This document shows positions 45,074 to 46,023 of a stretch of DNA of 64,000 nt, piece by piece. This DNA comes from Mariprofundus aestuarium (GTDB lineage: Bacteria > Pseudomonadota > Zetaproteobacteria > Mariprofundales > Mariprofundaceae), in contig NZ_CP018799.1 of NCBI RefSeq assembly GCF_002795805.1, forward strand, positions 2,101,001 to 2,165,000, written 5' to 3'. Each line of letters opens with the position of its first letter. The stretch's first letter is position 1. The notes under the pieces were generated by a model that worked only from the letters and a program-made list of their open reading frames with translations, was not told where the DNA came from and did not search any database. Both the position numbers and the translations under genes were made by a program.

Positions 45074-45170
45074 GTTTTCACGCAGAAATATTAGTTAAAT
45101 CAAGTATATAGCACACATTTCCTCTCCAACGACTTCGTTATTAATAGACCATCCTGCCCTCTAATAATAT

Positions 45171-45191
45171 AGGAGAAACTCCTCTTCTCCT
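45171..45191 (+). promoter_or_regulatory. Small alternative hairpins upstream of the LuxR-type gene
   Basis: AGGAGAA (45171-45177) can pair either with the near CTCCT (45179-45183) or with TTCTCCT (45185-45191). The site is upstream of the predicted promoter, so it is more likely a DNA-level palindrome or operator than an attenuator. Support is limited to base pairing. Confidence 0.3.
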
Positions 45192-45200
45192 TTGAATGAC

Positions 45201-45229
45201 TTCATATAGTTATTTGAATTACGCATAAT
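45201..45229 (+). promoter_or_regulatory. Predicted sigma-70 promoter of the LuxR-type gene
   Basis: TTCATA at 45201-45206 and CATAAT at 45224-45229, separated by 17 bp, match the -35 and -10 consensus in four and five of six positions. The implied transcript would begin near 45236 and include the poly-G tract in its leader. Confidence 0.5.
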
Positions 45230-45272
45230 GTTCGTTTAATTCATATTATTTTTAGGTGGTTGCAATCAAATC

Positions 45273-45287
45273 GGGGGGGGGGGGGGG
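45273..45287 (+). repeat. Fifteen-G homopolymer at the ribosome-binding position
   Basis: Fifteen consecutive G residues end 4 bases before the ATG at 45292. They occupy the place of the Shine-Dalgarno sequence and can pair with the CCUCC anti-SD with one G-U wobble. Tracts of this length slip readily during replication, so length variants are expected within a population and the assembled length is uncertain. Confidence 0.85.
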
Positions 45288-45291
45288 TCAA

Positions 45292-45933
45292 ATGGAGAGG
45301 TATCATATTCAGCTTATCAGTGAATCAAGCCTGATTCGTCATGGTTTGCTTTGCCTGCTGAATAAAGAACAGGGCTTCAGCCTGATGCCTCAAGTAAAAT
45401 GCTCACCGCCAAGCTGCTATAAGGCTTGTAGCACCCGCGAAACCGATTTGATTATCATGGACATCACTTCTGGTACACACAGCTGTATTGATTGCATCCG
45501 TCAGATTGCCAAACGTCATCCAAAGGTAAATATTCTGGTTCTTATTTGGCAGGAGCACTATTCGTTTGTTAATGAAGCGATTAATAATGGTGCCAAAGGG
45601 GTGCTTTCGATGGAAGCAGACCCGCCATTGTTCATAGAGGCCATACAAACAGTTGCAGCAGGCAGGCAGTTCATTGAACCCAGCCTGACACAGGCTATCG
45701 CAGAGGTGCCTTATCGTAATGTCTCCAATCCATTTGATCTGCTTTCGCCAAGGGAAAAAACGGTGCTGCTATTGATACTAAAAGGTCAAGACACCGTCAG
45801 CTGTGCTAGCAGGTTGCTCATCAGCAAAAAGACAGTTGCCAATCATTATACCCGAATCAAGAAAAAACTGGCTGTTAATGATTTGGGCCAACTTACACTC
45901 TTGGCGATCCGCCACAAATTCATACTCCCTTAG
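45292..45933 (+). CDS. LuxR-type transcriptional regulator with degenerate receiver
   Basis: 213 residues from ATG 45292. An upstream in-frame GTG (45256) would translate the poly-G tract as glycines but lacks its own ribosome-binding site. The N-terminal half has the receiver fold: the usual phospho-Asp position is kept (LIIMDITSG), but the acidic pair near the N-terminus is replaced (QLISESSLIRHG) and the conserved Lys is lost (NGAKGVLSMEAD). The C-terminal helix-turn-helix (LSPREKTVLLLILKGQDT, LLISKKTVANHYTRIKKKL) is typical of NarL/FixJ. It probably binds DNA without ordinary phosphorylation control. The 15-G tract could switch or tune its translation. Confidence 0.87.
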   Translation: MERYHIQLISESSLIRHGLLCLLNKEQGFSLMPQVKCSPPSCYKACSTRETDLIIMDITSGTHSCIDCIRQIAKRHPKVNILVLIWQEHYSFVNEAINNGAKGVLSMEADPPLFIEAIQTVAAGRQFIEPSLTQAIAEVPYRNVSNPFDLLSPREKTVLLLILKGQDTVSCASRLLISKKTVANHYTRIKKKLAVNDLGQLTLLAIRHKFILP

Positions 45934-45996: not shown

Positions 45997-46023
45997 AAAA
46001 AAGGCCGCATTTGCGGCCTTTTT
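45997..46023. terminator. Bidirectional terminator between the LuxR-type gene and hisS
   Basis: AAAAAAGGCCGCA and TGCGGCCTTTTT form an 8-bp GC stem with a TT loop and A/T tracts on both sides. It can end transcripts from the left (LuxR-type gene) and from the right (hisS operon). Confidence 0.9.

Follow-up and report, generated by a model that had tools for sequence, protein, structure and literature searches.

A guanine tract at the ribosome-binding site of a four-cysteine LuxR-type regulator gene in Mariprofundus aestuarium CP-5: a candidate slippage-grown Shine-Dalgarno sequence

Can an uninterrupted run of guanines serve as the ribosome-binding site of a regulatory gene and, through changes in its length, vary how much of the regulator is made? 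We were led to this question by a locus in a 64,000-nucleotide stretch of Mariprofundus aestuarium CP-5 DNA (NZ_CP018799.1, positions 2,101,001 to 2,165,000; hereafter the window), in which a gene for a LuxR/NarL-type regulator is immediately preceded by such a run. Direct reading of the sequence gave AATCAAATC-G15-TCAA-ATG-GAGAGG, that is, exactly 15 G at 45273-45287 and a start codon at 45292-45294. An initial annotation of the locus had also placed a 15-G tract four bases before the ATG, although its end coordinate of 45292 took in the spacer and the A of the start codon, and its statement that there is no other Shine-Dalgarno (SD) sequence agrees with our reading, in which the tract is the sole purine-rich, SD-like stretch within 15-20 bases 5' of the ATG.

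The tract is more than a chance occurrence. Nine 8-G words were observed in the window, eight of them within the tract, against an expectation of 1.79 and a maximum of 7 in 100 shuffles. Across the M. aestuarium genome (a single contig of 2,537,610 bases), runs of G or C of at least 9 bases comprised seven of length 9, two of length 10 and one of length 11, followed by the G15 tract and a single run of 18. The homopolymer is thus long enough to slip and lies far beyond chance, as expected of a contingency locus. Such loci typically, though not necessarily, occur in genomes rich in tracts, and we rejected a tract-rich genome of that type here since M. aestuarium has just two tracts of at least 12. 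The longer of these is a C18 run on the + strand (G000:C1:102195-102212, where G000 is the M. aestuarium genome analysed here; L025, L034) between a pentapeptide-repeat-like open reading frame (ORF) and an ORF with a SPOR-like C-terminal part, both named by eye; it lies in the C sense upstream of the SPOR-like ORF. One copy of a MutS domain gene was found in this genome.

Comparison with relatives indicated what the tract may have been before. Only two of the 73 other family genomes (G050 and G051) carry a nearest orthologue of the regulator, with 64-67% identity, and in G044, the nearest closed relative, there was no match at 1e-25 and none at 1e-30 with a profile. The G050 and G051 orthologues both have AGGAG ten bases 5' of the ATG, and their fetched loci contain no G/C run of at least 8; the alignment, which is weak within the leader itself, places the CP-5 run at the position of AGGAG. 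Because the orthologues carry an ordinary SD sequence there and lack any such run, replacement of that sequence by the G15 tract is fairly well supported by the comparison. In addition, the regulator gene is intact and a palindrome upstream of it has been kept, as expected of a gene still in use.

The tract would also be able to act as an SD sequence. Computed pairing energies with the anti-SD (kcal/mol) were -15.3 for G15, -14.5 for G8 and -9.8 for G5, compared with -6.9 and -11.1 for the SD sequences of the orthologues, all with the canonical anti-SD, which may differ from the 16S of the host genome. The suggestion in the initial annotation that poly-G can pair with the anti-SD is borne out by the value for G15, and pairing of this strength four bases before a start codon is what is looked for in an SD sequence. 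That annotation further proposed that slippage would change the strength or the spacing of initiation. A change in spacing was rejected, because the tract, whatever its length, keeps its 3' end four bases away from the ATG and any five adjacent Gs give a register; losing or gaining one G from 15 should hardly affect the strength of pairing.

On balance, we favour the following account as somewhat the likelier one. A short G-rich SD sequence would have grown by replication slippage into a run of 15 G that is still in use as the regulator's ribosome-binding site, with translation from the ATG at 45292. The run would be long enough for frequent changes in length, so that a population would hold mixed lengths. 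Because each length keeps a usable SD sequence at the same spacing, the effect on expression would be graded, through ribosome affinity and perhaps the structure of the G run, and would not be a clean on/off switch. Accordingly, we put forward phase variation at the tract as a hypothesis and consider a graded effect likelier than switching.

A true switch would be possible if translation began at the upstream GTG (45256) and read through the tract, as the initial annotation had raised. We simulated tract lengths of 12-19 and found the GTG in frame with the ATG at 12, 15 and 18 G, lengths at which the regulator would be on, whereas the other lengths from 13 to 19 lead to a stop after 21-26 codons. 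The GTG is therefore in frame at the deposited length, as proposed, but the sequence 5' of it, TTCATATTATTTTTAG, contains no SD, the orthologues have nothing that corresponds to the extension VAIKSGGGGGQ, and every tract length leaves the ATG usable, with a G-rich SD sequence before it. For lack of an SD and of homology, we rejected frame switching from the GTG as highly improbable.

Sharp steps in expression could also arise from RNA structure. An RNA G-quadruplex over the SD sequence, with three layers at 15 or more G, two at 11-14 and none at 10 or fewer, would block initiation, so that slippage between 14 and 15 G would switch or step expression. ViennaRNA with quadruplexes allowed gave -58.8 kcal/mol at 15 G, about -40.6 at 11-14 G and -22 without a quadruplex at 8-10 G, with a further step at 19, and a threshold effect on expression from the predicted steps at 11, 15 and 19 G is possible. 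According to work cited in PMC11087576, bacterial translation is inhibited when a quadruplex lies near the SD, and the authors' own result was enhanced translation with a quadruplex 46 bases upstream of the SD. Those systems share with CP-5 a G-rich leader in which a quadruplex can form close to the SD, but they are engineered reporters, whereas in CP-5 an uninterrupted G run of natural origin is the putative SD. The quadruplex is a prediction, however, from an energy model that is approximate for uninterrupted G runs; ribosome binding may outcompete folding, and the match of the deposited length to the 15-G threshold may be chance, that length being itself uncertain. We regard a quadruplex switch as an unlikely explanation. 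Our literature search found nothing that joins G-quadruplexes, ribosome binding sites, phase variation and homopolymeric tracts.

To place the tract among others of its kind, we counted G/C runs of at least 12 across the 74 family genomes and found 57 in 31 of them, of which 10 lay near the ends of fetched stretches and were set aside. Among the 47 kept, 3 were well inside a long ORF and 16 lay within 60 bases of a start, with starts assigned roughly, by a simple longest-ORF rule. G runs directly 5' of an ATG numbered two, namely the CP-5 tract and a G13 run in a second genome (L105, G067:C17). Homologues of the gene behind the latter run carry, at the same ribosome-binding site, AAGGAGG (G069), GGGGG (a second copy in G069), the broken G-rich GGGGAAGGGAGGGGGA (G066) and G13 (G067), with the G-rich stretch in these leaders (L105, L191-L193) separated from the ATG by distances that range from at most three bases to a few bases. 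As judged from these leaders, the series is a plausible natural path for the growth of a G-rich SD sequence. Two other kinds of long G run were seen in the family. In three genomes belonging to two genera (L064, L087 and L093 in G030, G013 and G018), the loop enclosed by the near-perfect inverted repeat GGCCTGCCAATT ... AATTGACAGGCCCC contains a run of 19, 14 and 17 G, respectively. In G015, contig ends carry a repeated sequence that terminates in 13-29 G (L060, L089-L092, L109-L111), a repeat that probably breaks the assembly.

The same survey lends some weight to a plainer explanation, in which the run was born of slippage or misread, has no regulatory role, and is fixed or transient in one cultured strain, where it may reduce translation or change nothing. 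Long runs are thinly scattered over the family and mostly outside long ORFs, very few stand directly before an ATG, and neither orthologue has the tract. The deposited sequence also invites this caution. Long homopolymers are less reliable in PacBio-only assemblies, and this assembly is of that kind, so the G-run length of exactly 15 is uncertain. The CP-5 genome (2.54 Mb) was assembled from PacBio RSII data with HGAP-3 at 382x, and short-read polishing goes unmentioned in the parts of the genome report drawn on here (PMC5513912). On the other hand, the tract sits on the ancestral SD position and not elsewhere in the leader, and without it the regulator gene has no SD. We consider a run of no consequence rather unlikely.

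Several observations weigh against a slippage-grown SD sequence in active use. The tract is not conserved, because both orthologues lack it, and its length comes from one assembly of one isolate, in a family set with one genome per species. The pairing energies depend on the canonical anti-SD, and the predicted quadruplex could hide the SD sequence. Furthermore, the 16 runs near starts divided into 13 in the C sense and 3 in the G sense (binomial P 0.02), a division suggesting that G runs are not favoured in this position.

Homopolymers known to tune expression usually work via the reading frame, promoter spacing or the folding of the leader. The closest likeness is with Mycobacterium tuberculosis espR, in which single-base indels in a poly-G of the 5' untranslated region alter translation while mRNA is unchanged (PMC11898584). 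Both are G homopolymers in the leader of a transcription regulator gene, but in CP-5 the 15 G lie directly at the SD position. Campylobacter jejuni flgR/flgS likewise combines a two-component regulator with homopolymer indels; there, however, the tracts are short runs of A/T (<7 repeats) and the mutations are called non-reversible (PMC8355987), whereas CP-5 has a long G tract before the start. Since indels in the espR leader tract change translation, tunable regulators of this general kind are already known. The initial annotation called such a tract uncommon for a NarL-type protein in this kind of bacterium; homopolymers acting on regulators do have precedents, though for Zetaproteobacteria a single literature search found nothing relevant.

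The regulator itself is unusual. Its receiver domain was barely recognised by Pfam (31.1 bits against a cut-off of 30.2), and its fold model (predicted local distance difference test score, pLDDT, 83.7) was built from 4 sequences. The receiver fold is followed by a C-terminal GerE helix-turn-helix, as in NarL/FixJ proteins; the closest solved relatives in the PDB are VraR/LiaR, DevR and NarL by sequence and ChrA, VraR and LiaR by fold. Together with L003-L009 and L024 it forms a group of nine proteins in eight of the 74 family genomes, which scored 287-329 bits against 178 for the next protein, a gap inflated by the profile having been built from these nine. Cys37, Cys42, Cys46 and Cys68 are invariant in all nine, whereas among 29 distinct next-tier relatives Cys was found at 37, 42 or 68 in none, at 46 in 10, and the full set in none. 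Residues used in receiver phosphorylation have also been lost: the Lys in 9/9, the Thr/Ser in 8/9, one acid of the acidic pair, and Asp57 in 4/9, although the M. aestuarium regulator keeps it. Thus, relative to NarL/VraR/LiaR-type response regulators, which it resembles in its receiver and GerE fold and in its best PDB matches, the group differs by a receiver without the conserved Lys and with four invariant cysteines that do not occur as a set in the 29 relatives.

An invariant cysteine set is a mark of regulators with a cysteine-ligated metal or iron-sulfur (Fe-S) centre. In the model, Cys37 lies just before a short helix (41-45), Cys42 and Cys46 lie in or next to it, and Cys68 lies in helix 63-75. 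Because the helices corresponding to these two are neighbours in receivers, a four-cysteine metal, Fe-S or disulfide/redox site in the receiver is possible on the model. We found nothing in the literature that we judged relevant to four-cysteine NarL regulators.

Features of the regulator locus and their coordinates within the window
Feature	Coordinates	Strand	Evidence
Divergent hybrid sensor histidine kinase (PAS, HisKA, HATPase, receiver), 718 aa	42917..45073	-	Domains; same arrangement in G050, G051
Palindrome ATAGGAGAAACTCCTC, candidate operator between divergent genes	45169..45184		Counterparts in upstream regions of the group
Weak sigma-70-like promoter match, TTCATA-17-CATAAT	45201..45229	+	3 found in region, 1.8 expected
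Upstream GTG in frame with the ATG, not considered the start	45256..45258	+	No SD; extension not conserved
G15 tract, proposed slippage-expanded SD sequence	45273..45287	+	Sequence, shuffles, genome run counts, orthologue alignment, pairing energies
4-base spacer TCAA, tract to start codon	45288..45291	+	Direct reading
LuxR/NarL-type regulator, 213 aa, GerE domain and degenerate receiver with Cys37, Cys42, Cys46, Cys68	45292..45933, stop codon included	+	Pfam, alignment, fold model
Terminator-like hairpin after the regulator, shared with convergent hisS	45998..46023		Sequence

Upstream of the regulator, the palindrome ATRGGAGNNNYTCCYG has counterparts in 6 of the 8 upstream regions of the group (L154-L159; two copies in G069), whereas 4000 shuffles produced 11 hits for the pattern, which was defined post hoc; the G043 and G005 loci lack a counterpart. 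Genome-wide enrichment was absent, the loose pattern RGGAGNNNYTCCY giving 35 matches against 40 for a reversed control and ATRGGRNNNNNTCCYS giving 5 against 16, and the GGAG/CTCC form occurs solely in the locus's own copy. We therefore rejected a regulon defined by the palindrome, and the sequence suggests local control at most. Pairing of the regulator with the kinase was seen only in M. aestuarium, G050 and G051 in a kinase search within the genus; the closest relative of the kinase and the regulator match lie on separate contigs in G053 and G048. In four other genomes, four-cysteine regulators (L154, L155, L157 and L158) lie beside genes for large secreted proteins or for type II secretion, among them a collagen-repeat protein and gspC (G048), an RCC1/laminin-G/PKD protein (G069), a Kelch/PKD/HYR protein (G049), and gspC and gspD (G043). 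This is a hint that the regulators control secreted proteins in some species, but the CP-5 gene has the kinase beside it.

A bolder combination of these elements is speculative and, as a whole, improbable. In it, the group would be a Zetaproteobacterial LuxR-type class in which receiver phosphorylation has given way to a metal, Fe-S or redox site made by the four cysteines, and whose members act through the palindrome on their own divergent promoter. A hypermutable poly-G SD sequence would further set the dose in CP-5, so that cells at the iron/oxygen interface would inherit differing set points for a redox regulator. In an iron-oxidising lineage, the four-cysteine group is in any case a concrete candidate for a redox or metal sensor not described before. 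A G run acting itself as the SD sequence would, if true, let an ordinary ribosome-binding site turn by a simple route into one with a heritably variable level of expression, and the family holds an apparent natural series of intermediates towards such a poly-G SD sequence; if so, M. aestuarium cells may differ in the amount of the cysteine-bearing regulator that they make.
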